This document shows positions 19,448-34,200 of a stretch of 34,958 nucleotides of DNA, piece by piece. Position numbers and translations under genes: made by a program. Within the stretch, counting starts at the first letter, position 1; each line of letters opens with the position of its first letter. Origin of the DNA: an uncultured Bacteroidales bacterium (lineage in GTDB: Bacteria; Bacteroidota; Bacteroidia; Bacteroidales; FEN-979); the NCBI GenBank assembly GCA_903875045.1, contig CAIQUS010000252.1:1-34958 (forward strand), given 5' to 3'. Under the pieces are notes generated by a model. The model was not told the origin of the DNA, searched no databases, and saw only the letters and a program-made list of their open reading frames with translations.

Positions 19448-20647
19448 CTAGCTAAAGAAAGGGTGATCCTTTAGTTTTTTAGCTGTCTCCAGCTTTGTGA
19501 CCCTGATGTATTTTAAGAAGGATTCTGTTTTCCTGTGTCCGGTAATCTCCATGATATCATGCATAGGAATTCCGGCCAAATAAGCATTTGTTGCAAAGGA
19601 TCTTCTGGCTGTGTGGGTTCGTATCTCCAGCCACTTATTGATATTGCCGCTTCTGACTTTATTGCTATAGGCCATTTGACCGATGAAACGCATACCATCA
19701 TTTGTTTTCTGCAACGAAAGTACCCCGAGTTTGTTCCCGTATTTAGTCAGGATTTCTACAACCAGTGGCTTTACAGGGATGATAACAGGTTCATCTGTTT
19801 TTTGAGTCCTGACATAAAGGTTGCCATCATGAATATTCTCAAGTGTTACCTTCGTCCAGTCAGAGTGTCTGAGTCCTGTAAAGCAGTTTAATACGAATAT
19901 ATCACGAATTCTCCGTTTTTCAGGGATATCCATCGGATATTCGTACAATGCCTGGATTTCATCCGTTGTCAAATAAACCGTGTCGACATCTACTTTAATA
20001 ACTTTGAAGTCACGCCTAAGATATTCCTGGTTAGTCGTAATTTTATCTTCAACAGCTTCAGTCATCAATCGCTTGACACGCTTAATATGAGAACCGACAG
20101 TATTGGGCTTCAATCCGATTTCTTTCAGATACCCGGTAAACTTTAAATAGAAGTCTTTGCCGATGGTTTCAAAGTCAACCTTGAACCCTTTTTTCTCCTG
20201 GAAATTTTCCAAATGTGTTTTCAAACCATTGTAATGCGATACATGGGTAGGATTGAATTTGTCTTTATAGCGTTCCTGAAATATTCCAATGAAAGACAGA
20301 AAAGTAGTTTTAAGGACTATTTTCTCCTCCTTTCTTCCAATGAAAACCTGGTAGGAATCCTTCAATTCTTTGGACTTTCTTTTAACCTCATCCTTTGTAT
20401 ATATTGATTCTGAGGGAAATAATTCATCATATTTATTTAACAGGAAATTTGTGATTTCACGTAAGCGCTTGTTATTTTCGGCATTTTCTTTTAACGGCTT
20501 GATTTTTTGATCATCCTGATCCCAGGCTTTTACTGGTACAGATAATCCAGTCGAAAGTCTTAATCTTTCATGATTGAATGTTAAAGCTATTATTAACAAT
20601 GTTTTACCATTGGTTTCTTTATACGGATAGTACTTCACGGTTGCCAT
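19448..20647 (-). CDS. tyrosine recombinase / phage-type integrase (int1)
   Basis: The 399-residue protein has an N-terminal arm-type DNA-binding domain (PYKETNGKTLLIIALTFN), a SAM-like core-binding domain (~105-200) and a C-terminal catalytic domain. The catalytic set is complete: R260 in TGLRHSD, the beta-hairpin Lys in TQKTDEP, H345 and R348 in HTARRS, His in TGHRKTES, and the nucleophile Y380 in LKYIRV. It would integrate or excise the element that carries it. It is convergent with the tail operon, and its promoter lies in a perfect inverted repeat. A tRNA-Arg fragment lies 170 bp upstream of its start. It probably belongs to the left element, though its own attachment sites are not proven. 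Confidence 0.93.
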   Translation of the reverse strand: MATVKYYPYKETNGKTLLIIALTFNHERLRLSTGLSVPVKAWDQDDQKIKPLKENAENNKRLREITNFLLNKYDELFPSESIYTKDEVKRKSKELKDSYQVFIGRKEEKIVLKTTFLSFIGIFQERYKDKFNPTHVSHYNGLKTHLENFQEKKGFKVDFETIGKDFYLKFTGYLKEIGLKPNTVGSHIKRVKRLMTEAVEDKITTNQEYLRRDFKVIKVDVDTVYLTTDEIQALYEYPMDIPEKRRIRDIFVLNCFTGLRHSDWTKVTLENIHDGNLYVRTQKTDEPVIIPVKPLVVEILTKYGNKLGVLSLQKTNDGMRFIGQMAYSNKVRSGNINKWLEIRTHTARRSFATNAYLAGIPMHDIMEITGHRKTESFLKYIRVTKLETAKKLKDHPFFS

Positions 20648-20783: not shown

Positions 20784-20818
20784 CGGTGTGATGTGCCTGA
20801 TGTTCAAGGGGTGTTTTG

Positions 20819-20860
20819 TGATCCCGGCGCGATTCGAACGCGCGACCCACAGCTTAGAAG
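20819..20860 (-). other. 3' half of tRNA-Arg(TCT), probable attachment site
   Basis: Read on the minus strand, this is an exact tRNA 3' half. It has an anticodon loop CTTCTAA (anticodon TCT), a 3' anticodon stem GCTGT, variable loop GGGTC, T arm GCGCG-TTCGAAT-CGCGC, acceptor strand CGGGATC and discriminator A. The 5' half is missing: beyond 20860 the sequence does not pair with GCTGT and has no D arm. Mobile elements that insert into tRNA genes leave such a 3' duplicate at one end. Given the orientation, the element should lie to the right, with the intact tRNA at its far end, outside this window. Confidence 0.75.
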
Positions 20861-20961
20861 ATATTACCATCACCATTTTACACCGTATATAAACCATGTG
20901 TAACAAGTCTAAAGAATTGATAAAAAGTTAATTATAAAAATATTTAATCTGTTGAAAATGG

Positions 20962-20989
20962 TTGCATAAGGTTAAAAATAGTATATTTG
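20962..20989 (+). promoter_or_regulatory. promoter of int2
   Basis: A TTG at 20962-20964 and a -7 box TATATTTG at 20982-20989 are 17 bases apart, slightly short of the usual spacing. Transcription would start near 20996, inside the tandem repeat, which argues against the alternative TTG translation start at 20962. Confidence 0.6.
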
Positions 20990-21013
20990 GGGGCAATTTT
21001 CGGGGCAACTTTC
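20990..21013 (+). repeat. tandem 12-bp repeat at the int2 transcription start
   Basis: GGGGCAATTTTC (20990-21001) and GGGGCAACTTTC (21002-21013) match at 11 of 12 bases and abut the -7 box. They could be a repressor operator or arm-type recombinase sites. Confidence 0.6.
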
Positions 21014-21018
21014 GTACT

Positions 21019-22251
21019 ATGGAATCAAAAACATTATTGGCGCTTGATCGCAGATCGCAAAGAAAAAATGAGACCTATCCAATATGCCTTGCGCTTTACC
21101 ACAAAGGTACAAAAAGCTATATCAATTTAAAGGAATATGTTCTGGATGATTTTTGGGATCAGAAAAATGGAATGGTTCTTAAAGGTGCGGAAGTATTTCC
21201 AAGCCTTTCCTGGGTAAATTCAAAAATTACCGGGAAAAAAGTTGATGCGAATAGGCTTATTAAAAGCCTGGAGGGATCTGGCCAGCTTAATCAGATAACG
21301 CACCAGGAGCTAAGGAGAAGGATTCAGAATAAATCTACCCAGGCATCATTTTCGACCTACCTTGATAATTTAATCTCAGAATTTGCCACAAATGGAAATC
21401 ACGGACAGGTAAGAATATACACAGGAGCAAAAAGTTTTCTGAAAAATTATGCTGATCCTGACAAGGATTTTAAATTCGAGGATATCAATTACAAGTTGCT
21501 AAAAACTGTTGAAGGAAAATTTAAACCAAGGATGCCGGGTTGTAAAAATGGACTATCTGTGCAGCTGCGAACAATCAGGGCGATATGGAACAGGGCAATA
21601 AAGGAGGGGTTGGTGAGTGTCGAACAATATCCCTTCAAAGATTATAAAATTCAAACCTCAAAATCACATAAAACGGCAATAAGCTCTGATGATATTAGGC
21701 GTATAAATGGATTAAAGTTGCCGGTAAACACTTCTGCATGGCACTGCAGGAACATGTTTCTTTTTTCTTTTCATACAATGGGTATGAATTTTGCCGATAT
21801 TGCTTGTCTGCAGGTAAAAAACATAAAGGAAGATAATATTACTTACACCAGGTCAAAAACCAAAAAGGCAATATCGGTACAATTGAATGATAACATCAGT
21901 AAATTATTGAAAAACTACATAGAAAACAAAGCACAAAATGATTACATATTCCCGGTAATTATTAACGCTCATAATGCACCTGCTGAAATTCAAGCCTATC
22001 ATAGTGTCGCTAATCACGCATTAAAAAGATGGGCAAAGAAATTATCAATTAATCCATCATTGTCCTTTAATACTGCTCGTCACTCCTGGGCAACAATAGG
22101 TAAGGAGTTAGATATTCCCATTGCAGTTCTGTCTGAGGGGCTTGGACATGCTGATATTGGTACAACTCAAATTTATCTCGACTCATTTGATAAAAAACGG
22201 ATTAATGATGCCAATACTCAGATAACTGAATTCATGTTACAGCAGAAATAA
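21019..22251 (+). CDS. tyrosine recombinase (int2) with variant active site
   Basis: The product is 410 residues from the ATG at 21019; a longer frame starts with TTG at 20962, but that overlaps the promoter. It has an N-terminal arm domain, a SAM-like domain (~105-205) and a catalytic domain. The nucleophile Y386 (TTQIYLDSF), a GH pair (GLGHADIG) and R354 in NTARHSW are present. The box I Arg is replaced (N257 in MGMNFAD) and the usual box II His is N351. Loss of box I Arg is known in some Bacteroidetes recombinases such as IntDOT, so activity is still plausible. It starts 160 bases from the tRNA-Arg fragment and reads away from it, the usual arrangement for an integrase at one end of its element. 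A terminator lies about 200 bases downstream. Confidence 0.9.
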   Translation: MESKTLLALDRRSQRKNETYPICLALYHKGTKSYINLKEYVLDDFWDQKNGMVLKGAEVFPSLSWVNSKITGKKVDANRLIKSLEGSGQLNQITHQELRRRIQNKSTQASFSTYLDNLISEFATNGNHGQVRIYTGAKSFLKNYADPDKDFKFEDINYKLLKTVEGKFKPRMPGCKNGLSVQLRTIRAIWNRAIKEGLVSVEQYPFKDYKIQTSKSHKTAISSDDIRRINGLKLPVNTSAWHCRNMFLFSFHTMGMNFADIACLQVKNIKEDNITYTRSKTKKAISVQLNDNISKLLKNYIENKAQNDYIFPVIINAHNAPAEIQAYHSVANHALKRWAKKLSINPSLSFNTARHSWATIGKELDIPIAVLSEGLGHADIGTTQIYLDSFDKKRINDANTQITEFMLQQK

Positions 22252-22300
22252 GCTGGCTGTTGCATATAATCGCTCAGGAAGATCATTATTCCCTGATAAG

Positions 22301-22397
22301 TCATTCACCTGGTCACATCATCACATCAGCATCAATTGCCCCGCTCCCTTCGGTCCATTGCACCAGATACCCATCCGGATCACTGGCACCGGCTCCC
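22301..22397 (+). repeat. dispersed repeat copy (unit A)
   Basis: This 97-bp stretch shares the ordered blocks TCATTCACCTGGTCACAT, GCATCA, CCGCTCCCTTCGGTCCATTG and CGGATCACTGGCACC with the tandem copies at 29502-29921. It starts 50 bases after the int2 stop and is non-coding. Confidence 0.75.
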
Positions 22398-22446
22398 AAT
22401 ATTGAAAATAAACAATGAAATAAAAGAAGGAATTAGATAGGAACAA

Positions 22447-22474
22447 AAAAGCCGCCCATTTCTGAACGGCTTTT
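22447..22474 (+). terminator. Rho-independent terminator after int2
   Basis: AAAAGCCG (22447-22454) pairs with CGGCTTTT (22467-22474) over a 12-base loop. A run on the left and T run on the right make it potentially bidirectional. The region from 22252 to 22691 otherwise holds only the two repeat copies. Confidence 0.75.
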
Positions 22475-22633
22475 ATAGATGCGACAGTTTTACCTGACTA
22501 TTCAACCTACCCTGCAAAGATACCAAAAAAAAATATGGTGCCTATGGCTCATGTTTATAAAAAAGTAATACGACAAGTAATGACCCCTGTATATTAGGCC
22601 AACACCACAGGGTTTCCGATCCATGCCAGAAAG

Positions 22634-22688
22634 GTAGGTTTATTCACATGGTTACAGCATCACATCGGAATCACTGGCACCGGCTCCC
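22634..22688 (+). repeat. internally deleted dispersed repeat copy (unit A)
   Basis: GTAGGTTTATTCACATGG is followed after a short middle part by GGAATCACTGGCACCGGCTCCC-type sequence. The ends match the other copies, but the ~45-base centre is missing. It abuts the 3' end of the minus-strand gene at 22692. Confidence 0.65.
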
Positions 22689-22691
22689 GGT

Positions 22692-22904
22692 TCATTTTTT
22701 AATGATTCTATTGAGTTTTTTCATTACCCGGGCCTCGCTAACAAATCCGGTACGGCCCTCAACCATCCTTTTTAATAACTCCTGATCCTCAGCATCATCT
22801 TCGTTGATAAATTTGATTCCCTTAAATTTCTCGGCCATAACCCTGGCTGTTTCTATCAGCGCTTTGCCAGCCTTTGTACGCTCATTTATCTGTATAGTTG
22901 TCAT
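22692..22904 (-). CDS. small hypothetical protein, antitoxin-like
   Basis: The product is 70 residues. The N-terminus (MTTIQINERTKAGKALIETA) resembles the ribbon or helix start of small antitoxin-type or DNA-binding proteins; the C-terminus is helical and basic (VMKKLNRIIKK). No toxin gene is adjacent: the next gene on the same strand encodes a small unknown protein of different character. It may belong to the switch region transcript that also contains the XRE regulator. The function is unknown. Confidence 0.6.
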   Translation of the reverse strand: MTTIQINERTKAGKALIETARVMAEKFKGIKFINEDDAEDQELLKRMVEGRTGFVSEARVMKKLNRIIKK

Positions 22905-22931
22905 GATGCAAAAATTAGTAATTAAATTGAT

Positions 22932-23138
22932 TTATATCCAGTTGAACCGGGAGCAATGGGCAAATATTTCAATTTCGTCAGATTCATATTTATGTCCATC
23001 AAATGACATATAATGATATTTACAGCCCCAAAATCCAAAATATTCATACCAATCTGAGCCGGGAATGATCTGAAAAAGGTCACCTTTTGACAGTTCACTG
23101 ATCTTTGAAATTTTCATTTTTTTCGGAGATTTCAACAT
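22932..23138 (-). CDS. small hypothetical protein, aromatic-rich
   Basis: The product is 68 residues, or 61 if translation starts at the second Met (23117: MKISKISELSKGDLF). It is an SH3-like small beta protein by appearance (GDLFQIIPGSDWYEYFGFWG), rich in Trp/Tyr/Phe/His and without signal peptide. It lies between the 70-residue gene and the XRE regulator, all on the minus strand, so co-transcription with the regulator is likely. I do not recognise the family. Confidence 0.55.
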   Translation of the reverse strand: MLKSPKKMKISKISELSKGDLFQIIPGSDWYEYFGFWGCKYHYMSFDGHKYESDEIEIFAHCSRFNWI

Positions 23139-23235
23139 GATCGGTTGCGGTTAACAAAACAAGTCTTATGACCCTTGATCATTCTTGTAATCACTCCCGA
23201 TCATCGGTGTCGACTTTGTTGACAATTTTGAATCA

Positions 23236-23652
23236 CTATATTATCCCGTGGCTTTTGTTTTTCCGCTGGTCCCGTAATGATTTGTATAATCCGTATTGTT
23301 GAGACAGCTTTACGATCTGGGGGAACTCATATAAAGAAGCTGATAAAGGAATCTCATCGGCAGAATTATCATTACTACTAAGCAGGACACTGGATAAATA
23401 AAACTCCAAAGCGTCTATTTTATCATTTAAGGCCAGTACCTCATCCTCAAGTGTCGGAAAAAAATACGAGAACGGAATGCCATATTCTTTTATGATCATA
23501 AAAAGACCATTAGCGTCTATTGCAGATTCTCCCTTTATAATACTCGTAACAGTATTTCGATTTTTTCCAATCAACCTCGACAGGTCTTTTACCGTAATAT
23601 TATGTTTTTCAACATATTGACGTAATTTGTCTTCAACCTTAATGTCATCCAT
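23236..23652 (-). CDS. XRE-family repressor-like regulator
   Basis: The 138-residue protein has a helix-turn-helix of the Cro/CI (XRE) type at about residues 8-62 (VEKHNITVKDLSRLIGKNRN, then TVTSIIKGESAID). The C-terminal region is leucine-rich and helical, suited to dimerisation, with no LexA-type peptidase motif. It is divergent from the excisionase-like gene at 23782, with about 130 bases between them holding a strong promoter and a palindrome. This is the arrangement of a lysogeny or induction switch (CI-like, or Stl-like in phage satellites). Without a peptidase domain, derepression would probably need an antirepressor partner, as Stl does. Confidence 0.8.
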   Translation of the reverse strand: MDDIKVEDKLRQYVEKHNITVKDLSRLIGKNRNTVTSIIKGESAIDANGLFMIIKEYGIPFSYFFPTLEDEVLALNDKIDALEFYLSSVLLSSNDNSADEIPLSASLYEFPQIVKLSQQYGLYKSLRDQRKNKSHGII

Positions 23653-23683
23653 AGCTTAATTTTTATTTATTATTGGTATTTTC

Positions 23684-23720
23684 TTGACATTAGTGTTTAT
23701 TTTATTATATTTGTGCACAA
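23684..23720 (+). promoter_or_regulatory. rightward promoter with overlapping palindrome (switch operator)
   Basis: TTGACA at 23684-23689 and the -7 box TATATTTG at 23706-23713 have 19-base spacing counted from TTG, an ideal Bacteroidales promoter. The palindrome TTGTGCACAA (23711-23720) overlaps the end of the -7 box and the start site. It is a natural operator for the divergently encoded XRE protein. Confidence 0.7.
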
Positions 23721-23781
23721 TATTTAAGCATGTCGCATTAATTATTATATTCAAGTGGTAAATATAACAAATATTTCGCAT

Positions 23782-24048
23782 ATGAGCACAGGTATAGCAA
23801 TTTTTAATATTTCCGAAATGAAGGATGTGATAATAGAGGCCCTAAAAGAGCATGACGAGGACAAGAAGAAAAATGCCACGATCGAATCATTTTCCATACA
23901 TCATGTCGCAAAACTTTTAGGCAGGGCTGATCGGACGGTATTAAGTCTCGTTAAGAAAGGGATTATAAAGGCAACAAAAGACAAGCGCATAATGAGCACG
24001 GAGCTTGAAAATTACATTAACAACAGCCAGGAAAATCAAGATGAATAG
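23782..24048 (+). CDS. HTH_17/MerR-like excisionase-type protein
   Basis: The product is 88 residues from the ATG at 23782; a GTG at 23755 would add nine residues and cannot be excluded. The C-terminal half is a winged-helix of the excisionase/MerR sort: FSIHHVAKLLGRADRTVLSL, then VKKGIIKATKDKR. The N-terminal part is a short charged helix. It is the first gene behind the switch promoter, so it would be made only on induction. Such proteins act as recombination directionality factors or regulators. A second protein of the same fold follows. Confidence 0.7.
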   Translation: MSTGIAIFNISEMKDVIIEALKEHDEDKKKNATIESFSIHHVAKLLGRADRTVLSLVKKGIIKATKDKRIMSTELENYINNSQENQDE

Positions 24049-24115
24049 GATTGAATTTAAAAAATTAGTGGCAATCATACATTTATTAATCATTAACATA
24101 TAAATTTCTAGGCAA

Positions 24116-24406
24116 ATGGAAGTAATCGTAATTGAAACTGCTGCATTTCACAACCTCATTGACCAGGTAACCAAGCCGCTTTTTGATGAGATTCGTCAGA
24201 TCAGGAAGGAACTTTCGGATAAATCACTCGAAAACGAATGGATGGAAGAGGAAGAGGTAATGAAGCTGCTGAAAATTACCAGCAAAAGCTGGCTCAGCGA
24301 GTACCGGGTATCAAATAACCTTCCATGCTATAAAGCGGGCCGTAAATATTCCTACAAGCGGGCTGATATTATGAAATTTATTGAAAAACGCAGGGCAAAC
24401 AGGTAA
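24116..24406 (+). CDS. HTH_17 excisionase-family DNA-binding protein
   Basis: The product is 96 residues. The pattern EEEVMKLLKITSKSWLSEYR followed by LPCYKAGRKYSYKRADIMKF is the Bacteroidetes HTH_17 (excisionase family) signature, in which the wing carries the K/R-x-YxR/K-x-x-D-I motif. The N-terminal ~45 residues form a helical or coiled-coil region. It lies 67 bases after the first excisionase-like gene, in the same direction. One of the two is probably the excisionase for int2; the other may regulate the replication genes. Confidence 0.75.
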   Translation: MEVIVIETAAFHNLIDQVTKPLFDEIRQIRKELSDKSLENEWMEEEEVMKLLKITSKSWLSEYRVSNNLPCYKAGRKYSYKRADIMKFIEKRRANR

Positions 24407-24662
24407 TTTATAAACAACATAGCAATATGAAAGGTGTAAAATTGAAAAGTAATTTATTTAATGGGAGGAATTAATTGGAAAATATTTCAAAGAGGGGATA
24501 ACTCATCAACTAGTCCTCACTAAAAAACAAGAACAACGACAAGAAGGTCGTGAAAAGTTTCATTTTTAAGTGAAACGTGATTTCATTCTCTGAGACAACG
24601 GATAATAACATAAAGTAAACTATGAGTAAGCTAAAATAAAATAATAGAATCCTTTAAAAAAG

Positions 24663-24691
24663 CAAAAGCCGTGGTGTAAACACGGCTTTTG
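24663..24691 (+). terminator. Rho-independent terminator
   Basis: A perfect 11-bp stem (24663-24673 with 24681-24691) with a 7-base loop and T-rich descending arm. It separates the switch transcript from the HTH/replication genes. Confidence 0.75.
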
Positions 24692-24727
24692 TAATCAGTA
24701 ATTTTTTAAACTTAAACCTTATTAACG

Positions 24728-24847
24728 ATGCACAAAGATAATAAACTTTTAAATTATCAGATCGCAGCCAAAAAACAAGAGATATCCATCCCTACGGACT
24801 GCATCAAAGTTACAATTACCCATCCATCAAGATTATTATCGTATTAA
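24728..24847 (+). CDS. possible 39-residue small protein
   Basis: The ATG at 24728 opens a 39-residue frame (MHKDNKLLNYQIAAKKQEIS at the start) ending at TAA 24845-24847, 15 bases before the next gene. It has balanced composition and no recognisable motif. Support is only the short distance to the next gene and its position just after a terminator, so it may be chance. Confidence 0.3.
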   Translation: MHKDNKLLNYQIAAKKQEISIPTDCIKVTITHPSRLLSY

Positions 24848-24862
24848 TGCATAGGATAGGGT

Positions 24863-25075
24863 ATGAAAAAATCTAAGATTAAAGAACTAAAGGAAGAAAT
24901 TGAGGGTCTAAATTTTTTAATGGACGAATTTAGGCATGATGTTTTGGCAGAACATGACCGGGCTAACCAGATTGAAAAGAAACTTTTAAAATTCAAAGAG
25001 AAGGAAGGGATATACTGGCGGGAGGTGATGAATAAAAAAGTTAGACCGCTTCGTAAAGAATTGTTTCGGAATTAA
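24863..25075 (+). CDS. small coiled-coil protein
   Basis: The product is 70 residues, highly charged and almost entirely helical (KKSKIKELKEEIEGLNFLMD; ANQIEKKLLKFKEKEG), with heptad-like Leu/Ile spacing. There is no signal peptide or membrane segment. The following disrupted frame at 25139 encodes a similar short coiled-coil, so the two may be related accessory proteins. The function is unknown. Confidence 0.6.
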   Translation: MKKSKIKELKEEIEGLNFLMDEFRHDVLAEHDRANQIEKKLLKFKEKEGIYWREVMNKKVRPLRKELFRN

Positions 25076-25114
25076 CGACACATTAAAAACCAAATCGAAT
25101 TACATCAATCTATT

Positions 25115-25308
25115 GTTTAATAACAAAAATATCAAAACATGGAACCAGTTAATTTGATTGAAAAACTTAAATGAGAAAACCAACGTCTTAATGAAAGACT
25201 TGAGCTTTATGAAGGGATGATGAAAGATAAAAATTTCGTTATTGAGTTAATGAAAAAAAAAATTCAATATGAAAAATCATTTTATAGTTTAATAACAAAA
25301 ATATCAAA
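25115..25308 (+). repeat. pair of 22-bp perfect direct repeats, 172 bp apart
   Basis: The segments 25115-25136 and 25287-25308 are identical over 22 bases (core TTTAATAACAAAAATATC). The first precedes the ATG at 25139 and the second encodes the end of the same disrupted frame. This looks like a small duplication or recombination scar. Confidence 0.75.
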
Positions 25309-25315
25309 GAATTGA
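25139..25315 (+). pseudogene. short coiled-coil gene interrupted by an in-frame TGA
   Basis: ATG 25139 is followed by MEPVNLIEKLK and a TGA at 25172-25174. The same frame then continues with ENQRLNERLELYEGMMKDKN and further charged helix to a TGA at 25313-25315. The continuous coiled-coil pattern across the stop suggests a nonsense mutation, with 57 sense codons in all. The tail of the frame lies in the second copy of the 22-bp direct repeat, so the 3' end may not be original. Readthrough or restart at the internal Met codons (25217-25222) is possible but unsupported. Confidence 0.5.
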
Positions 25316-25376
25316 ATTGAGAAGACACCAGACATTGTTCACATAAAAATTACATTCTCAAATAGTTAATAAAACC

Positions 25377-25697
25377 ATGTTAATTAGGCAAAGACAAATT
25401 AGGGTATTACAGGAATTTGTTATTTCAGAACGACTGGAAGCGGATGACAAACAGGCAATCATTGACCTTGTAATAACACTCCAACGGCAAGGCTCATGTG
25501 TGATCTATAAAAGTGATTTAGCCAGGGAGTATGGGGTAACGCCTATTACATTCAATAAGCGAATTAAGCAGACGGAAGGATTGTGGAATGAGCTATATGA
25601 GAAATATGGATACACAAAATGGAGAAAATATTTCTTTCCATCGGAGGTAGAGCTTATTAAAAAATGCTTAGGCGATCCGAAAACAAAAACAATTTAA
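25377..25697 (+). CDS. small HTH-module protein (copy A)
   Basis: The 106-residue product has a helical N-terminus (RQRQIRVLQEFVISE) followed, at residues 43-101, by a module shared with three other proteins here. It consists of a helix-turn-helix (SDLAREYGVTPITFNKRI), a linker, then a FFPSEVELIKKCLGDP ending. The closest relative in the window is the minus-strand protein at 29973-30305 (both contain GYTK and a F-x-P-x-E-x-x-x-I ending). The module looks like a small DNA-binding unit. Placed ahead of the primase-helicase, it may help origin recognition or control replication genes. No described family was recognised. Confidence 0.65.
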   Translation: MLIRQRQIRVLQEFVISERLEADDKQAIIDLVITLQRQGSCVIYKSDLAREYGVTPITFNKRIKQTEGLWNELYEKYGYTKWRKYFFPSEVELIKKCLGDPKTKTI

Positions 25698-25737
25698 CAA
25701 AGGTCAAAATCAGCAGTGGCATTAATGGTGGACGATA

Positions 25738-25968
25738 ATGGAAAAAATCAATGAAGATGCAGGAAAACGTTTCATTGGCTTCTCGGAAGTTGCAAGTGAA
25801 TTTGGTGTATGTGCGGGGACATTGAAAAGAACGATCCTTCGGAAATCAGCGTTGCTCCGGCAACTGCAGGAAGATGGATTCTCTATTGAAAACAATCGGC
25901 TGCCAGGAAAGCTTCTCACACCAAATCAGGCCAATTTGATAAGAAAAAACCTGTTAGGATATGAATAA
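25738..25968 (+). CDS. small HTH-module protein (copy C)
   Basis: The 76-residue product is almost only the module: FSEVASEFGVCAGTLKRTIL (residues ~15-34), a variable linker, then LLTPNQANLIRKNLLG (residues ~59-74). This is the same order as in the 106-, 110- and 138-residue proteins. Its stop overlaps the next start region by 8 bases, so the two are translationally coupled. It is probably DNA-binding by the HTH pattern, with partner unknown. Confidence 0.65.
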   Translation: MEKINEDAGKRFIGFSEVASEFGVCAGTLKRTILRKSALLRQLQEDGFSIENNRLPGKLLTPNQANLIRKNLLGYE

Positions 25969-26377
25969 GGTACCATTTAAGGATGCCGTTACCCTTGGTC
26001 AGGTTGCCTCGTGTTATCACAGAGACCGAAAGACCTTCCGTAAAATGATCGGTCCGCTCATTGACGGACAACTATCTTATCTCAAGGACGGCCGTATCCG
26101 AAAAATATTTCCGTGTGATCTAAGGTTGATCGCTGAATTTCTTGGAGATATCGAATACAGAGCAATCTTTCCAAAAATTACCCTGGGTTCAATTGCAAAG
26201 TCATATGGTTGGTCTGTGGCTCAACTTACAAGAAACATTGCGCCAATTCAAAAGGAGCTTAGAAGCGCAGGATTGGTTCCAGGGAAAGCATTAACACCTC
26301 TTCATGCTCAGATAATATTTAATCACCTGGGTATTCCGGAGGATGAAACACCGCTGAAATATTTCAAATTTTACTGA
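25961..26377 (+). CDS. two-module HTH protein (copies D1 and D2)
   Basis: The 138-residue protein contains the module twice. Residues ~10-63 read TLGQVASCYHRDRKTFRKMI, then a linker, then FPCDLRLIAEFLGD. Residues ~72-124 read TLGSIAKSYGWSVAQLTRNI, then LTPLHAQIIFNHLG. A protein with two such units could bind two adjacent DNA sites. It overlaps the preceding gene by 8 bases and is followed 80 bases later by the primase-helicase gene. The phased GGTAAA sites at 29298-29352 are a plausible target, by inference. Confidence 0.65.
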   Translation: MNKVPFKDAVTLGQVASCYHRDRKTFRKMIGPLIDGQLSYLKDGRIRKIFPCDLRLIAEFLGDIEYRAIFPKITLGSIAKSYGWSVAQLTRNIAPIQKELRSAGLVPGKALTPLHAQIIFNHLGIPEDETPLKYFKFY

Positions 26378-26457
26378 TACCCACATTTAACCTAAAACCA
26401 ATTCAGACATTAGATTTTATTATTTAGTCAACAACAAATCAAGTACACACCAAAACG

Positions 26458-29133
26458 ATGAATTCCAATACTCCTACAACAAAAAAAAGAATTCCGGAAC
26501 ACGTCATTCAACAGGTAAGGGAGCTTGATATTTCAGATGCCCTGGCTCCATATCTTGACATTACTAAAAATGGTTCCGGATTAAAGGCCATTTGTCCGTT
26601 TCATAACGATACAACACCAAGCCTTTCTATAAGCCCTTCAAAAGGAATATACAAATGCTTCCCTTGTGGTGCATACGGAACAGATGCCATCAGTGTTGTG
26701 ATGAAAGTAAAAAGTGTCGAATTTCTTGAGGCAGTCAGGATTATCGCCGCTGATCACAAGATCGAAATACAGGAAGAGGAATTATCAGAGGGGCAGGAAG
26801 AGGCTTATAAAAAGCGTGAGGCCATTTTCAATGTAAATAAATGGGCTGCCTCATGGTACTCAATACAATTGAAAGAGAAAGCTAATGCCAAGGCTCTGGA
26901 ATATGTTAAATCAAGGTGGAACGATGAATCTGTAGAATCTTTTTGTATTGGTTATGCGCCTGGCGGAGAGCATACTTTTATTACTGCAGCCAAAGAGTCA
27001 GGATATCAGGAAGCATTACTCTTGGAGGCAGGGTTGATCACCGAAAGCAAGAATGATGGAAAGGAAAACACGTATTATACTTTCAGGAACAGAATCATGT
27101 TCCCGGTTCATAATAAAAATGGCAACGTTTGTGCGTTTTCGGCCAGGGTTGCCCCCGGCAATAAGGATAAGGCAAAATACATCAATACCCGCGATACTGA
27201 ATTCTATCATAAAAGCAAAATATTATATGGCCTACATATCGGGAAACCATCGATCAAAAAACAAAATAATGTTTACCTGGTTGAAGGAAACTGCGATGTG
27301 GTCAAGCTTCGCCAGATAGGTGTCTGCAATTGTGTTGCTTTATCAGGTACCTCATTAACCATTCAACAGATTGAAGAGCTAAAGAAGATAACCGAATGTT
27401 GCACCCTGATCCCTGACATGGATCCAGCGGGCGAAGCTTCTGCCATCCGGTCAGCAAAACTGATTATTAAACATGGTCTGTTCTGCAAAATAATACCACT
27501 CCCAGCCGGCGATATAAAACAGGACCCGGATTCATTCTTTACTGATAAAGTTCAGTTTGATAAATATGTGAATGGCAATGATGAGGAAAAGGGACATAAG
27601 AAGGATTACATTTTTTACCTGGCCGAGACAGAAAAGGATAATTGCAAAGAGCCTGATCAAAAGGCCAGGCTGATAGCTGATATCACCTCCATGGTGTTAT
27701 CTCTTCCGGAAGCCACCCATGATGATTATTTTACAGAGCTTGGGGGGATTATAACACCAAAAACGTTATGGAAAAGGAAAAATTTAAAAGCAGCGATAGC
27801 AACTCATAAACAGAAAACCAAAAAGGAGGCAAAAGTTATTGATGCAGCCAGGGCTGAGAAAAATGAACCCGAATATAAGACCGGACTGGCAAAGGAAGCA
27901 AAAAAATATATCAGGGTAAGAACAGATTTTTATAAAAGAAGCTTTACGTTAACGGCAAAAAAAGAAAAAGCAGCAGCATTGTTTTATTGGAAAAAAGGCA
28001 CCATTACCGAAGATTATGGTAGAGATATCATTAAGTATATTGCCAAATACGATTCATTCGTAAATATTCCTGATAATTCTCAAGAATATAAAGCTGAATA
28101 TTTATTGGATGGGAATAACTACTTCAATTTATTTGAACAATCAAAATATATTCCTTCCATTGGTAAAGTGAGCGTAACACTGGATTTTTTAAAACATATA
28201 TTCCAGGATAAATTTGATGTAGCATTAGACTACATGAAAATATTATATGAGAACCCGGTTCAAAAATTGCCTGTGATATGCCTGGTATCAAAAGTACAAG
28301 AAACAGGAAAATCAACATTTCTGCGATGGGTGTGCAATATTTTTGATGGTAATGGAATCATACTTGGAAATGAGGATTTTGCCGGTAAATTCAATTCTCA
28401 TTTTGCCGGAAAATTGGTAATTGGTATTGATGAATCATTCATTGACAGGAATCTTATTAAGGAAAAGATAAAACGGCTGGTAACCGATGAATTTATTAAC
28501 CTGGAAGCAAAAGGCCGTGACGTTATCAAGGTTGATTTCATTGGCAAGTTTATTTTACTGAGCAACAAGGAAAGCAACTTTATTCAGATGGAAGATGAAG
28601 ACAACAGGTTTTTCGTTTGTAAAGTACCGCAAATAAAAACCAAGGATCCTGATCTGGACAAGAAGCTAACTGCAGAAATTCCTGCTTTCCTGCATTATCT
28701 GAAGGCTCATGAACTTGTTTATGAGCAAAAAAGCCGACTTTGGTTTGATTCAAAAGTGTATGAAACAGATGCACTGCGAAAAATCGTAATGACAACCAGA
28801 AGCAAAGTTGAAAAAGAGATGATTCAATGGTTTGAATCTATTTTTGATACTTCTGAGAATTACACTGAAATAGAAATTATACCCAGGAAGCTTGCAGATT
28901 ACATTGGGAAAAATCTTAAATCAATAAATGCTTTACCTATTGAAATCGAACGAATTTTAAAGGAAGAATGGAATTTGATTCCGGATAAAAACCAAAAGTT
29001 TTATCATCCATATATCAAGGAGCACCATGATCCATCGGAAGATATGGTAGTTTCAACAATTGGTTTTGAGCGCCATACAGGAAAGCCATATAAGATTTCA
29101 CGGTCCTTCATTGATTCAAAAATTCAGATTTAA
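26458..29133 (+). CDS. primase-helicase fusion (CHC2 zinc finger, TOPRIM, SF3-like ATPase)
   Basis: The 891-residue replication protein has three parts. A CHC2-type zinc finger lies at residues 46-70 (C46, H49, C67, C70 in CPFH...CFPC). A DnaG-type core follows, with a TOPRIM domain at ~270-335 (YLVEGNCDVVKL; IPDMDPAGEA). The C-terminal AAA/SF3 (D5-like, DUF5906-type) helicase has Walker A QETGKST (~613-620), Walker B VIGIDES (~652-658) and sensor FILLSNKES (~698-706). It should prime and unwind DNA at the element's own origin. Such fusions are typical of phages, phage satellites (P4 alpha, PICI pri-rep) and some plasmids. Its ATG is 80 bases from the HTH gene, and a terminator and then an iteron-like array follow directly. 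Confidence 0.92.
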   Translation: MNSNTPTTKKRIPEHVIQQVRELDISDALAPYLDITKNGSGLKAICPFHNDTTPSLSISPSKGIYKCFPCGAYGTDAISVVMKVKSVEFLEAVRIIAADHKIEIQEEELSEGQEEAYKKREAIFNVNKWAASWYSIQLKEKANAKALEYVKSRWNDESVESFCIGYAPGGEHTFITAAKESGYQEALLLEAGLITESKNDGKENTYYTFRNRIMFPVHNKNGNVCAFSARVAPGNKDKAKYINTRDTEFYHKSKILYGLHIGKPSIKKQNNVYLVEGNCDVVKLRQIGVCNCVALSGTSLTIQQIEELKKITECCTLIPDMDPAGEASAIRSAKLIIKHGLFCKIIPLPAGDIKQDPDSFFTDKVQFDKYVNGNDEEKGHKKDYIFYLAETEKDNCKEPDQKARLIADITSMVLSLPEATHDDYFTELGGIITPKTLWKRKNLKAAIATHKQKTKKEAKVIDAARAEKNEPEYKTGLAKEAKKYIRVRTDFYKRSFTLTAKKEKAAALFYWKKGTITEDYGRDIIKYIAKYDSFVNIPDNSQEYKAEYLLDGNNYFNLFEQSKYIPSIGKVSVTLDFLKHIFQDKFDVALDYMKILYENPVQKLPVICLVSKVQETGKSTFLRWVCNIFDGNGIILGNEDFAGKFNSHFAGKLVIGIDESFIDRNLIKEKIKRLVTDEFINLEAKGRDVIKVDFIGKFILLSNKESNFIQMEDEDNRFFVCKVPQIKTKDPDLDKKLTAEIPAFLHYLKAHELVYEQKSRLWFDSKVYETDALRKIVMTTRSKVEKEMIQWFESIFDTSENYTEIEIIPRKLADYIGKNLKSINALPIEIERILKEEWNLIPDKNQKFYHPYIKEHHDPSEDMVVSTIGFERHTGKPYKISRSFIDSKIQI

Positions 29134-29165
29134 TAAGAGCCTTTAGAGTATAGTTTTTGATTATG

Positions 29166-29194
29166 AACCGGTCTCAATAGAGCCGGTTTTTTTG
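29166..29194 (+). terminator. Rho-independent terminator after the primase-helicase
   Basis: AACCGGTCT (29166-29174) pairs with AGA-CCGGTT (29179-29188, one bulged G) over a CAAT loop and is followed by a run of T residues to 29193. Confidence 0.8.
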
Positions 29195-29297
29195 TTTTAA
29201 CTATTTTATATTTCGCCTGATATTTTATTAATAGTCAATAAATCATTTACTGCGTTTACTATATTACATAAACCCTTATCTATCTAAGTAAATAGAG

Positions 29298-29352
29298 GGT
29301 AAATTGAAGGTAAACAAATGGTAAATTTACCGGCGTTTACCGGCCATTTACC
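29298..29352. other. phased GGTAAA/TTTACC array, putative replication origin
   Basis: Three GGTAAA sites start at 29298, 29309 and 29320 (exactly 11 bp apart). Three TTTACC sites start at 29326, 29336 and 29347. The two sets meet in the palindrome GGTAAATTTACC at 29320-29331. Spacing near one helical turn puts all sites on one face of the DNA, as in iterons bound by a replication initiator. Upstream (29200-29290) is very AT-rich, with two further TTTAC matches. The location immediately after the primase-helicase gene is where satellites such as SaPIs keep their origin. A large operator is the alternative. Confidence 0.6.
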
Positions 29353-29501
29353 GGTTATAATATTGTAATACAGTGCTTTATATCAAAAGTAAATTGGTAA
29401 ATGAAAAACATGAAATTAAAAAAATATTTTCCATGATGAAAACTATTTTTTCAATCGCTGGTCACCCCCCCCCCAGGGTTACCGGTCCCTGGCAGAAACG
29501 C

Positions 29502-29921
29502 AGGTTCATTCACCTGGACACAGAGCATCACGTTAGGATCATTGCCAGGCTCCCTTCGATCCAGTTCACACAGGCACCCGCCCGGATCACTGGCACCATT
29601 GCCCCGGATCGCTTCATTACAGGCCATTGGTAAAGGGTTTCAGGATCATTCAGCAAGGTTAGGTTCATTCACATGGTCACATGATCAGCATCAGGATCAT
29701 TGCCCGGCTCCCTTTGATCCAGTTCACACAGGCACCCGCCCGGATCACTGGCACCATTACCCCGGATCGCTTCATTACATGCCACTATTGCTGGGATTCA
29801 GGATCATTGCACCTTGATGGATCATTCACATGGTCACTGGATCAGCATCAGGATCATTGCCCGGCTCCCATCGGTCCATTGCACCGGGTGCTCATCAGGA
29901 TCACTGGCACCAGCACAGGGT
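29502..29921 (+). repeat. tandem dispersed-repeat block (three copies of unit A)
   Basis: Three copies start near 29502, 29661 and 29819, a period of ~158-159 bp; the last is shortened. Shared blocks in order are TCATTCACATGGTCAC, GATCAGCATCAGGATCATTG, CCCGGCTCCC, TTCACACAGGCACCCGCCC (first two copies) and GGATCACTGGCACCA. Copies 1 and 2 are nearly identical over long stretches. Several frames stay open across the block, but the translations are low-complexity and differ in frame, so it is not taken as coding. Related single copies lie at 22301 and 22634. A run of ten C residues (29465-29474) precedes it. The 29195-29972 region otherwise contains only the origin candidate. Confidence 0.8.
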
Positions 29922-29972
29922 CAACTTTTGTCATAATAGCAACTACTCAATTTATGGAATGATCCTGAGCGG

Positions 29973-30305
29973 TCAGATTTTTACCGGAATTGCGCCAAGA
30001 TGTTTTTCGATAATTTCTATTTCGGCAGGGAGAAATAATTTTTGATATTTCGTGTATCCGCTCTTTCTATTAAAATCCTCAATTAGTTCAGCCGATGTAT
30101 TAAGTCTTCGGTTTAGAGTCTGTTTTGAAAATCCATATCGGGATGCTAACTCTGTTTTTGATATACTGCCTAATTCAGGCGATTTTAGTTTTGAAATCAA
30201 ATCCTTTAAAGCCAGAATTTGTTCATCATTTTCACTGTGATACCAAACATGATTTCTTAGAGCCTCTATTTGTATCCTTGTTTTTGCATGGCGATCGTTG
30301 ATCAT
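29973..30305 (-). CDS. small HTH-module protein (copy B)
   Basis: The product is 110 residues. Residues ~48-105 carry the same module as copy A: KTELASRYGFSKQTLNRRLN, then GYTKYQKLFLPAEIEIIEKH and LG. The N-terminal helix region differs (AKTRIQIEALRNHVWYHSEN). It lies on the opposite strand beyond the repeat block, so this family is spread around the putative origin rather than in one operon only. A structured RNA candidate lies ~90 bases upstream in the same direction. The function is probably DNA binding; specificity is unknown. Confidence 0.65.
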   Translation of the reverse strand: MINDRHAKTRIQIEALRNHVWYHSENDEQILALKDLISKLKSPELGSISKTELASRYGFSKQTLNRRLNTSAELIEDFNRKSGYTKYQKLFLPAEIEIIEKHLGAIPVKI

Positions 30306-30390
30306 TCGTGTCTATTTTGCCAGGAAAAATTGTTATACTACCTGGATTGGAAATAGCTGAAGTCAGTATGTTTAAAATTTTCACTCGCAA

Positions 30391-30505
30391 GATAATAAAA
30401 AAAAGGTTCAAAATTGGTTCCTTTACTCGGGCTGCAATTGCCTGGAGTCTGAACAAACCCTGAACCTTTTTTGTAAGCTCAACAGAGTTACCTGCAGCAA
30501 GTCTT
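30391..30505 (-). ncRNA. candidate rod-like small RNA with intrinsic terminator
   Basis: On the minus strand a -7 box TATATTTG (+ strand 30512-30519) is followed by a GCAGC/GCTGC hairpin. A long nested structure then follows: AAAAAAGGTTCA (+ 30461-30472 reversed) closes with TGAACCTTTTTT (+ 30399-30410). Inside it TTTGTTC pairs with GAACCAA (one mismatch), then ACTC with GAGT, then GGC with GCC. It ends in eight U. This gives an RNA of about 110 nt. No good -33 element was seen. The rod is nearly symmetric, so transcription from the plus strand (six U) or a DNA-level role is also possible. The region 30306-30760 has no convincing protein gene. Confidence 0.45.
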
Positions 30506-30760
30506 ACGCTGCAAATATATAAAATATTGGAAGATTGGTCAGGAAGAAAATAAACACATCTAAATCCGAGGCAAGGAATCCGGATACGAGGGATCAGTTT
30601 TTCGCTCATGGGACAACATTCTTTGTGTTTTTATTCTGACAAGTCGCATTATTATACATTATCAAACATATTCGACATTAATATAACGTATCGGGTAAAA
30701 TCCCTGTGTTGAGAAAATGAGCGGTAGTAGTTTTGCTTTAGTTTATCAAAGATTAAGCTT

Positions 30761-31090
30761 ATGGAAAGATCAAAAAACGCAAATCCAAACAAGATGACAA
30801 AGCAATTCAAACTTATTACAGACGATGGCGGCCATGAAATCATTGCTTACGAGCGTGCAGCCCTGAAAGCATATTACAAGGCCAAAAAAGACCTGATTGA
30901 AGCGATGGAGGATGAAGATTCTGAAATTGAATCCGGATTCGTTACGCTGATGGTCAGGAACATCAACGACGACACGTTTAAAGGCACCGAATGGGAGACT
31001 TATCAGGAATATGTCGTAGAACCTGATCCTGATGATGATGACCTTGGCGACATCAATGAGGATAATGTCGATGATGACGACAACGATTAA
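30761..31090 (+). CDS. acidic-tailed hypothetical protein
   Basis: The product is 109 residues, or 98 from the second Met at 30794 (MTKQFKLITDDGGHEIIAYE), which looks like the true domain start. It has a small alpha/beta body with a helix ALKAYYKAKKDLIEAME and a strongly acidic C-terminus (EPDPDDDDLGDIN, then NVDDDDND). DNA-mimic and anti-restriction proteins are often acidic, and this gene sits beside a restriction-modification gene; that is only a suggestion. A -7-like box TAGTTTTG lies at 30728-30735 upstream, and a terminator follows. The gene is convergent with the type ISP gene. Confidence 0.65.
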   Translation: MERSKNANPNKMTKQFKLITDDGGHEIIAYERAALKAYYKAKKDLIEAMEDEDSEIESGFVTLMVRNINDDTFKGTEWETYQEYVVEPDPDDDDLGDINEDNVDDDDND

Positions 31091-31115
31091 ACAAAAGCTT
31101 TTTTTGAAATGATGG

Positions 31116-31150
31116 CGGGTTTACTGGCATGAACCCGTCATTGTTTTTTT
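31116..31150 (+). terminator. Rho-independent terminator
   Basis: CGGGTT (31116-31121) pairs with AACCCG (31132-31137), with flanking imperfect pairing, followed by seven T residues at 31144-31150. It ends the acidic-protein transcript. Confidence 0.75.
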
Positions 31151-31236
31151 ATGACAACTTCGACCGCTTACCCTTCTTCTCCACCGCAAACAAACCCGAC
31201 ATTAAGTTTGCTAAATATTTGATTACTAATTATTTT

Positions 31237-34200
31237 CTATTCTATTTCAATGTTATTAATATCCTTCATAATTCTATCCGTCTGTGTCAAGGCAACAATG
31301 ATTTTTTGATAATGTAGAATATCATCAAACAACAGCTCACGTTCTTTCCGGTCTTTCAGCCATTTCTGAGCAGGTTGGTAGCCACCGATGAAAAACTCCC
31401 ATGCTACCTGTGGCACGTTGGCAAAATATTGAGCTTCGTTAATATACACGTTGCCATTTTCATAGCGTATTTTGCCTACAATGTTGCTTCCACCCACCGG
31501 ATATTGGGTCATAAGTTTGCTTACAACCGGGCTTTCCAACAGGTGTATTTGCCGTAATTCGCTGCCAAGTGCAACCAAAAGCCAAAATGTAACAGGATCC
31601 TTTGGATAAGGCACACGCGGAAAATCAATTTTCAGGAACTCCTTGTATTTATCGCGGTACGTTGGCGAATGTAGAACGGCATATATATAATCCAGTAAGT
31701 CAATCGGGGCAAAAGTATCCGGTGTTTGCTCCTTTTCGTTAGTGAAGCGTAAGCCTAACTTATCTCCTATCTGCTTTACTATTTCGGCGTTTAGGTTGGG
31801 GGTGCGTTCGGTTGTATGTTCTATGGTTTGTTGGAAGGTGGTTGCGGGATAGAGGTAGAGAGGGAAAGTAGTACAAGTATCAAGAGAGGAAATAGCATCT
31901 TTTCCAACAATAGCTTTATTTATCCAAAATGTTCCTTGTTCTCCATTTCTAGATTGTCTAAATGTAGATAATCCCCAATTTTCTCCTTGAAGAAAGTGAT
32001 GCATCACTTTTTCTCGTCCACGATCAATTAAACTACTTTCATAATAGCAATATCTCTTATCAAACGGACGATAATCAATAAATGTAATTTTATTTCTATC
32101 AAATGATCCAGATTTACGAGCAACAGAAATTGACCAATCACCGTTATTTTTTATATGAAACTTATTTGTGATTGTATTTTCGTCTACGCTGTGATCATAG
32201 AATTCACTTATTCTTTTTGACAAAGTTTCCGAACTAAAATCAACAACGAAATGATCTCTATGTGTTTTAATCCCAGAAGAACTCAATTCGAAAAGTTCTT
32301 CAATTTTAAATCCTTCTTCATACATATCGCTTCCAACAAAGTCCTTTTTTACAAAATAGTAGTTAGGCTCAAGACAATCCAATTTGTTCCATTCTAAAGA
32401 ATTTATGGAATTTTCATTCAAAAAATCATACTTAACCTCCCTTTTTCCAAACAAATCAGAATGAAACACTTCCCCTAATGCGCTTTTCTTTTTCTTGCCT
32501 GTTTTCACGAAAATATTTATACTCACGCCTTGCATAATATCAAATACATTTTGGTCGGGTGAACCATCGGGGCAAACTTCCTTTTTCTTTGCGTTGCCGT
32601 GCAAATCGAGTATGTATATCTTATCAAAACTTTGCAATAAATGCTTCCGCATCTGGCGGTGTATAATGCCATCGAGAAAACTGTTGTTGGAAATATAAGC
32701 CAAAATCCCGTCACCGTTTTTATCAATGAAGTGTTGCCCGAAACGGATAAATTTTATGTAATCGTCGGAGAGAGGCTGGATATTCCTTTCATTTAAATCC
32801 TTTTTGTAGTCGGCTGTCAGCTTTTCAATCCATTCGCTTTTATTGGTGCTGCTTACACTATACGGCGGATTCCCTGTTACCACCATCACCGGCGTATCCC
32901 TTTTCACATGGTTTGCTTCGTTGGCTTCGGTACTCAGCCAGTTGGCAAACAGGGTTCCGGTATCGGCATGGTGCTCTTCGAGACTGTTGGTAAGGTATAT
33001 GCGGAAACGCTGTTCGTTTTTCGGCACATAGCCGGTTTCCCTCAATAGCAAATCCAGTTTAAGGTGCGCCATGGCATACGAAACCATCAGTATTTCAAAC
33101 CCATTCAAGCGGGGTATAAGGTGCTTTTCCACATAATCGCTCCAAATGCCTTCCTGCCCTTTAAACTTGGCGTGAATTTGTTTGATAAGTTCAGCAATAA
33201 AAGTCGCCGTTCCTGTTGCTGGGTCGAGGAATTGCACACGGTGTACCAGTTTTTCAATCTGATTTTTCACACCCGGAACATTTACTTTAATGGTAGTCAT
33301 TGAATTATCGGCTAATCCATTGGCAATACCAAATTCGGTAATCAAAATGTAATCAATGGCACGAACAATAAAATTAACCACAGGTTCGGGTGTGTACCAT
33401 ACGCCACGAGCTTTGCGCAAGGCAGGGTCGTACGACGTTAAAAAGGTTTCGTAAAAATGGATAATCGGGTCCTGAGTTTGGGTTGAGCTGCCAAAGTTTT
33501 TCAACAGTTCGGCGACATCGGTAGCACGAAACACATCGGCCAGGCCATCCACAATCCACGAAATACGGCTGTCTAAATCGTAACCAGCCACATATTGAAA
33601 CAGTTTGCGCAGGAATGGGTTTGTTTTTGGAATCAAATCGGCTGCTTCCTGCCGTGTAAAAGTATCAAGTGAGGTATCATGCAAACGTGCTGCAAACATT
33701 CCGTATGCAATGGTTTGCGCATATACATCAGCAAAACCAGTGGCGTTTATATCGTGTATAAGTATTTGCCTGAAGGCAAGAAACTGGTCTTTGAGTGAAC
33801 TGTTTTCCTGGTTGTCCTCATCGCTTTCGAGAGCTTTCCCAATCACATCGGCAAGCATCCGTGCTTTCGCAGCCATCATTTCGGCCAATTTCCGTGAACT
33901 CTTAATGGTTTGCCCCTGGTAAGCGCAGAAATCCTTTATCAGTGCTTCAAAGTGTGAGTAGTTGTCGGGTAGCGGAATAAGTTTGCCGTTTCGTATTTCG
34001 GCAATTCGCACAGCGGTTTTGTATCCGCCATCTAAGTAAAATTGAAAATCAATGTAATCGGTTATAATGAGGTTATCGAGCGAAGCCTTGTAGCGGTCGA
34101 ATTGTTCTTTGAAAAGTTTGTCGTTCAGGTTCTCACCAATGTTTTTCGCTTCGATGTATCCTACTGGGATGCTTTTACGGGTTATGATATAATCGGGCGC

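Follow-up and report, generated by a model that had tools for sequence, protein, structure and literature searches.

Two integrated elements in tandem at a tRNA-Arg gene

The window analysed here is a stretch of 34,958 bp from an uncultured Bacteroidales bacterium. It comprises the entire contig C252 of a 253-contig assembly (G000), and each of its ends is an assembly end. The window holds two mobile elements in tandem: a tailed prophage on the left, which we call prophage A (1-20817, plus strand), and an integrative element on the right, which we call element B. Because the window ends are assembly ends, both are incomplete. The right end of B is out of sight because the contig stops at 34958; the visible part (20861-34958) measures 14.1 kb, and the true length exceeds the window. 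The initial annotation of this DNA, covering 20819-31150, had proposed that B is a satellite resembling the phage-inducible chromosomal islands (PICIs), located next to a tail-gene cluster.

A and B meet at the attachment (att) core, the 3' half of a tRNA-Arg(TCT) gene on the minus strand (20818-20860), which extends from the anticodon loop to the end of the gene. ARAGORN found no intact tRNA in the window. The intact gene that the initial annotation had anticipated lies on another contig (C35:4074-4150), and the core matches 42 of 43 bases within it (C35:4076-4118). We found no third copy of the tRNA half in the genome at up to two mismatches. Prophage A ends on the left of the core with the tyrosine integrase int1 (19448-20647, minus strand; PF00589, E 2.6e-13). 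The G+C content is 37.8% in B, 42.1% in A and 44.1% in 15 kb of C35.

B begins with a second tyrosine integrase, int2 (20962-22251, plus strand), which reads away from the tRNA half and contains Phage_integrase (PF00589, E 1.1e-20), Phage_int_SAM_5 and Arm-DNA-bind_5 domains. Comparison with relatives makes the ATG at 21019 the likely true start. The int2 leader contains a 12-bp tandem repeat (20986-21009, plus strand) of a kind that recurs in int2 relatives and may supply integrase arm sites. Further along, a candidate XRE-type repressor (23236-23652, minus strand; HTH_3, E 9.3e-8) is opposed to a helix-turn-helix (HTH), excisionase-like protein (23755-24048, plus strand; phrog_66, E 1.4e-3; HTH_17 below the cut-off). 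A fused protein follows at 26458-29133 (plus strand), with a DnaG-type primase in its N half (CHC2, DNAG_N and Toprim in Pfam) and a DUF5906 helicase in its C half. Directly behind it is a candidate replication origin (29245-29402). The cargo is a single-chain restriction-modification enzyme of Type ISP, or IIG type (31237-34353, minus strand; Type_ISP_C, E 7.1e-87; PADLOC REase_MTase_IIG), which lies past position 31150, where the initial annotation ended.

We scanned 14 proteins of B against PHROGs and 12 against Pfam. These proteins of the visible 14.1 kb gave no match to a structural, lysis, large-terminase or relaxase family, and none of them was named as Psu, Sid, Delta or a capsid-sizing family. 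Thus, the initial annotation was right about the integrase, the primase-helicase, the restriction-modification cargo and the lack of structural, terminase and conjugation genes among the scanned proteins, one weak terminase-type match aside (see below). Its divergent regulatory switch was recovered in part. The XRE and excisionase-like genes are indeed opposed, but the operator is a weak candidate: AT-rich inverted repeats and a single 9-bp direct repeat, whose second copy agrees at 89%, scored without a chance control.

The replication module and the islands that share it

The primase N half is 49-51% identical to proteins of two related genomes (L048 and L049, at G008:C143 and G009:C509), and related genomes encode stand-alone DUF5906 proteins that share 49-56% identity with the helicase C half. 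A search of phage records with the primase gave 217 matches, all below 60% identity and none covering 80%. Genome contigs contained 583 relatives, the best 80 of which were 33-38% identical. The whole primase-helicase had no match in viral contigs. Two PADLOC matches of DRT type fall on the DnaG-type N half, and we read them as that domain.

In the origin candidate, GGTAAA iterons of either orientation surround AT-rich stretches. Seven GGTAAA/TTTACC units lie within 29285-29405, straight after the stop codon of the primase-helicase gene, whereas no 120-bp stretch held more than three in 200 copies of the window simulated with an order-2 Markov model; the origin-like array of the initial annotation therefore stands. 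The arrangement recurs in six islands of related genomes (L043-L047 and L056, in G017, G019 (two), G020, G022 and G029), each of which has a DUF5906 helicase. In L043, L045, L046 and L047, clusters of 4-6 units start directly behind the homologous helicase, and the same iteron cluster stands behind the helicase in L044 and in L056 (six units). The richest 120 bp of nine other loci held at most 1-3 units. The region aligns between the window and five islands at 77% mean column identity, and the sixth island also carries it. We read the array as a candidate origin with its cognate helicase. This reading agrees with the layout of PICI origins given in PMC6092414, where the origin is immediately 3' of the initiation gene and two iteron sets surround an AT-rich region.

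Behind the origin, the six islands encode a protein of 207-212 amino acids that is homologous to the presumed small terminase subunit (TerS) of phages related to prophage A, hereafter A-type phages. A homologue directly precedes the large terminase gene (TerL) in three A-type prophages (phrog_2 for the two tested), and a TerL-like open reading frame (ORF) follows the homologue in 13 of 14 IMG/VR loci; the fourteenth contig stops there. We therefore presume that the island protein is a TerS. A profile search of 61 genomes gave 38 matches, and locus counts cover 30 of them, leaving 8. Among the 30 loci, 21 have TerS beside TerL, 6 have it beside a DUF5906 helicase without TerL, and 3 have neither neighbour (two are cut by contig ends; the third is L421). 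These results show a new feature: the helicase-origin pairing of B recurs in six islands that carry the presumed TerS with no TerL beside it, as TerS-bearing PICIs do.

Four island TerS proteins share 68-72% identity with the TerS of the A-type prophage G013:C5. In a tree of 42 TerS sequences, five island sequences group together with full support, nested among those of phages. The sixth sits elsewhere on a long branch, so two changes are needed on the tree. The label 'phage' in this tree takes in L421, where no TerL was seen, and L390, whose contig stops after TerS.

A tRNA 3' half stands just before the integrase gene in L043, L045 and L047 (by eye). A separate primase follows the origin in L043 and L045 (CHC2/Toprim) and, by eye, in L047. 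The cargo includes AbiEi/AbiEii in L044 and RadC in L046. No capsid gene was seen by eye in the stretches retrieved for the six islands, whose far ends were not found. The six islands match the plan of TerS-bearing PICIs better than B does. By eye, L044 (G019:C20) also has genes for type I restriction and for a protein of DUF262 type.

Integrase relatives, the right end and the remaining genes

We compared the surroundings of 12 int2 relatives. Two of them have the same junction of int2, tRNA 3' half and int1: L105 (G064:C57) at tRNA-Val(CAC) and L112 (G000:C237) at tRNA-Val(TAC). In three others (L101, L104 and L067), the tRNA 3' half is followed by apparently ordinary chromosome in the place of int1 (by eye). 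Five more distant relatives (L107-L111, 38-40% identical) adjoin an intact tRNA-Gly, and L106 and L103 have no placement. In G064:C57, two exact 43-bp copies of the tRNA-Val half, separated by about 10.9 kb, frame the int2 element and leave int1 outside. At E 1e-40, int2 has no match in G017, G013 and G025, three genomes whose A-type prophages end in int1. The bounded G064 element, the int1-ended genomes lacking int2 and the int2 elements lacking int1 support the view that B is separate from A. The alternative raised in the initial annotation, that B is half of one rearranged prophage, is not borne out by these comparisons. At 1e-100, the sole int2 match among 393 genomes of the order was G000 itself, and a search of viral contigs gave no match.

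Two int2 elements have contents of their own. The complete att-bounded element of L105 (5388-16310, 10.9 kb) encodes a replication initiator (phrog_2562) and a series of small proteins; several of these have a terminal membrane helix or a beta-rich look (by eye). Seven of the small proteins scanned in PHROGs gave nothing better than E 0.05, and four scanned in Pfam gave no match. This element could be a small virus or a satellite with its own particle proteins. In G008:C133 (L101/L102), an int2 relative (63% identical) heads a mobile element with RadC, LPD3, an M15 peptidase and a reverse transcriptase, perhaps a diversity-generating retroelement.

Arm-like 12-bp repeats of the kind in the int2 leader are also present at the far end of several int2 elements, at one fixed distance from the tRNA. 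The far-end repeat matches the leader at 17 of 24 positions in G064, at 24 of 24 in G008:C113 (paired with C71) and at 24 of 24 in G009:C185, which has the same flank as G008:C113; none of 400 background windows was as good in any of these cases. G000:C16 matches C237 at 23 of 24, with no background run. It is from these repeat matches that we deduce that C113 belongs with C71, and C16 with C237. On C35, the 3'-flanking sequence of the intact tRNA-Arg(TCT) also contains a 12-bp tandem repeat (C35:4005-4028) at the offset of the other right ends, and it matches the leader of B at 15 of 24. This score is reached at 11 of 49,676 background positions when one place is fixed, and by the best match in 35 of 400 random 150-bp windows. 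The L101 leader scores as well on C35 as the B leader does, and the G064 motif reaches 15 elsewhere in the flank (9/400). The repeat is suggestive of a right end of B that joins C35. The end of C35 encodes a protein sorted by the type IX secretion system, and because its family has many copies in these genomes, C35 may instead represent an empty site. The Por_Secre_tail family on C35 and the relatives found in the primase searches fit a host in the Bacteroidota.

Several elements of G000 sit at copies of tRNA-Val(TAC) (C237, C16, C25 and C111; L112, L381, L058 and L382). One copy shows a junction of int1, half tRNA and int2; at another, a half tRNA and then one more integrase come after a far end. 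Two copies are intact, each flanked by an island-like end, one of which has a DUF5906 fragment.

The small HTH genes listed in the initial annotation are present in B. A second HTH protein (24116-24406, plus strand; HTH_17, E 2.4e-8) has its best PHROG match in an HTH family (phrog_668, E 9.5e-10). It also weakly matches a terminase small subunit family (phrog_9452, E 8.4e-4). We read this match as a shared HTH because the HTH matches are better and because the xis-type HTH protein of island L046 behaves alike, with a similar terminase-type match (phrog_141). Two DUF4248 proteins are encoded at 25377-25697 (plus strand, E 7.8e-8) and 29973-30305 (minus strand, E 3.2e-6, just over the cut-off), and a very weak DUF4248-like protein at 25738-25968 (plus strand, E 0.033, below the cut-off). 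A 70-residue protein with no assigned function (22692-22904, minus strand) is 59% identical to a protein in G008:C143, a contig that also matches the gene at 23755 (29%, weak) and the primase N half. The remaining ORFs encode 68 residues at 22932-23138 (minus strand; no PADLOC or PHROGs match), 70 residues at 24863-25075 (plus strand; weak match to phrog_1009, function unassigned, E 7e-3), 138 residues at 25961-26377 (plus strand; no family match) and an acidic protein of 109 residues at 30761-31090 (plus strand; no family match).

GC-rich tandem repeats of about 158 bp occupy 29462-29929 (plus strand), with diverged copies at 22281-22699, and are separate from the iteron array. Within their own genome they occur on this contig only (E 1e-3). 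Similar stretches are found in 3 of 19 other genomes (G001, G005 and G003), near contig ends and beside ordinary-looking genes.

Prophage A is a cluster of head-tail and tail genes identified by PHROG tail matches, Pfam and PADLOC, which agrees with the tail-gene cluster of the initial annotation, and it is syntenic with A-type phages of relatives and of IMG/VR. Its tape measure gene (8670-12317, plus strand) lies among the tail genes. Homologues of int1 (60-70% identical) end homologous tail clusters in three relatives (G017:C31, G025:C24 and G013:C5). By eye, int1 and the adjacent spacer with its terminator-like hairpin resemble the end of the A-type prophage in G017:C31, where the int1 end adjoins an intact tRNA-Lys, in agreement with the order in the window. 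In G013:C5 and G025:C24, the nearest tRNA is tRNA-Arg(CCG), on the side opposite int1. These two prophages show no exact att repeat of 16 bp, only similarity over 15-18 bp, so that any bounds given to them are provisional. A-type prophages are thus not uniform in their arrangement of int1 and tRNA. An HNH nuclease gene (1117-1890) and an AbiD-like gene (2302-3201) lie between the head-tail genes of A; by eye, G017:C31 has a methylase-like gene in their place. A comparison for a packaging signal shared by A and B found none: the longest common words were 14 bp (n = 7; 20 simulated copies gave 6.1 on average), and the terminase region of A is off the contig.

The nature of element B and its relation to known satellites

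With modest confidence, we interpret B as an integrative, self-replicating element of the phage-satellite type that has no particle genes of its own. What the sequence itself shows is the left boundary of B, the tandem order, the genes of the visible 14.1 kb and the helicase-origin pairing conserved with the TerS-bearing islands. In the simplest order of events, A would have inserted first and rebuilt the tRNA-Arg(TCT) gene. Int2 would then have placed B into the anticodon loop of this gene, whose 3' half A had supplied, giving the tandem A, B. The XRE repressor, opposed to the excisionase-like HTH protein, may silence B, and induction would lead to its excision. The fused primase-helicase would open the iteron origin behind its own gene and replicate B, and the DNA might reach new cells inside the particles of a helper phage. 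While B is resident, the restriction gene would protect the host. The right part of B, off the contig, would presumably also be free of particle genes.

Several observations weigh against this interpretation. B shares its attachment site with a prophage: int1 of A abuts the same core. The right end and the unseen length of B are off the contig. The presumed TerS is named from gene position, with no support from PHROGs or Pfam and no significant PDB match in a fold search (model with a predicted local distance difference test score of 74), and the TerS of L044 is just 46% identical to that of the A-type prophage G013:C5. The window has no TerS homologue at E 1e-8, and the sole TerS match in G000 at E 1e-10 (C72) adjoins TerL. 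The int2 gene and the primase N half also have relatives on phages or phage-like elements. It is these that favour reading B as the early half of another complete temperate prophage, in tandem with A, with its late genes in an unassembled gap, an explanation that we regard as unlikely. Int2 relatives (60-63% identical) lie on phage-like elements of G008 (C71 and C133), and an endolysin (phrog_7, E 1.4e-46) is encoded at the probable far end of C71, which lies on C113. A probable prophage of G008 uses tRNA-Arg(TCT): the flank of this tRNA carries the repeat that matches the C71 leader at all 24 positions, and the endolysin lies further in, with methylase and ResIII-type restriction genes after it. 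The primase N half is of phage type and occurs in A-type phages (45% identical in IMG/VR 3300046710_000506). However, the helicase-origin module is that of the TerS-bearing islands. Moreover, the primase gene of B is followed by repeats, an opposed gene and cargo, not by late genes, which appear to follow the primase in A-type phages (by eye).

We find it very improbable that A and B are one phage, read as a circle or concatemer with a central attP and an integrase on each side. Read circularly, the contig would give the order integrase, regulators, primase, gap, head-tail genes and integrase, and the int2/core/int1 junction is repeated in L105 and L112. The exact 43-bp att pair of G064, however, encloses an int2 element alone, three genomes with int1-ended A-type prophages have no int2 match at E 1e-40, and other int2 elements have different DNA where int1 would be. 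We weighed seriously the idea that the whole contig is one phage and have dropped it, as the bounded G064 element largely refutes it. That B is a mobilizable island, or an integrated plasmid, transferred by conjugation is only slightly less improbable. RadC is common on Bacteroidota mobile islands, and L046, with the same helicase-origin module, carries it. On the other side, the scanned B proteins include no relaxase family, and in six islands the module is accompanied by a protein presumed to act in phage packaging.

A wider proposal, which we put forward more tentatively than the satellite interpretation itself, is that B belongs to an undescribed lineage of satellites in this family of Bacteroidota, defined by a DUF5906 helicase and a GGTAAA-iteron origin. 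Other members would carry a helper-derived TerS. The element in the window would represent a TerS-less branch with a captured phage-type primase and a prophage-type integrase, docked in a tRNA site rebuilt by a prophage of the helper family. Satellites are well documented in Firmicutes and Proteobacteria. In titles and abstract openings of the literature searched, which included few subscription papers and so is weak evidence, none was described in Bacteroidota, and the text of PMC6092414 does not contain the word stem 'bacteroid'. The helicase-origin-TerS signature can be searched in sequence data; it would allow satellites to be counted in Bacteroidota and would link them to a candidate set of helper phages. 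Such satellites would explain how defence genes, including restriction enzymes and AbiE, travel among these bacteria. With A and B docked in tandem at a single tRNA gene, it can be asked, and tested, whether B gains from sharing the site of A.

The A-type phages (G013:C5, G025:C24 and IMG/VR 3300046710_000506), to which prophage A belongs, resemble B in the primase N half, which is 45% identical in the IMG/VR contig; unlike B, they have a terminase pair and tail genes, with apparent late genes after the primase. P4-like satellites are like B in layout, combining an integrase, a fused primase-helicase and defence cargo; the scanned B proteins include no named Psu, Sid or Delta. The TerS-bearing islands share with B the DUF5906 helicase with an iteron origin downstream. 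They differ in having TerS, and L043, L045 and L047 also encode their primase separately, behind the origin. In B, the primase is of phage type and fused to the helicase, no TerS is in view, and the integrase is a different one, 23-32% identical to theirs where compared.

Finally, B resembles PICIs of the SaPI/EcCICFT073 type, as described in PMC6092414, in the order of integrase, opposed regulators, xis-like gene, fused primase-replication gene and accessory genes, and in an origin immediately 3' of the replication gene with iteron sets flanking AT-rich DNA. This likeness is one of gene order and layout. The visible part of B has no TerS, which is a feature of some PICIs only and is added by the related islands. 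B is unlike PICIs in sharing its attachment site with a prophage, one criterion for PICIs being a site that prophages never use. The PICI-like character proposed in the initial annotation therefore holds for the gene order and the replication module, and falls short at the right end, the TerS link, the site and the int2 relatives. We do not classify B as a PICI, because int2 relatives drive phage-like elements, a prophage occupies the same tRNA site and B has no linked TerS. The likeliest reading is a satellite-type element that has the replication module of the islands, the gene order of the PICIs, cargo straight after the replication genes and no particle gene in the visible part.

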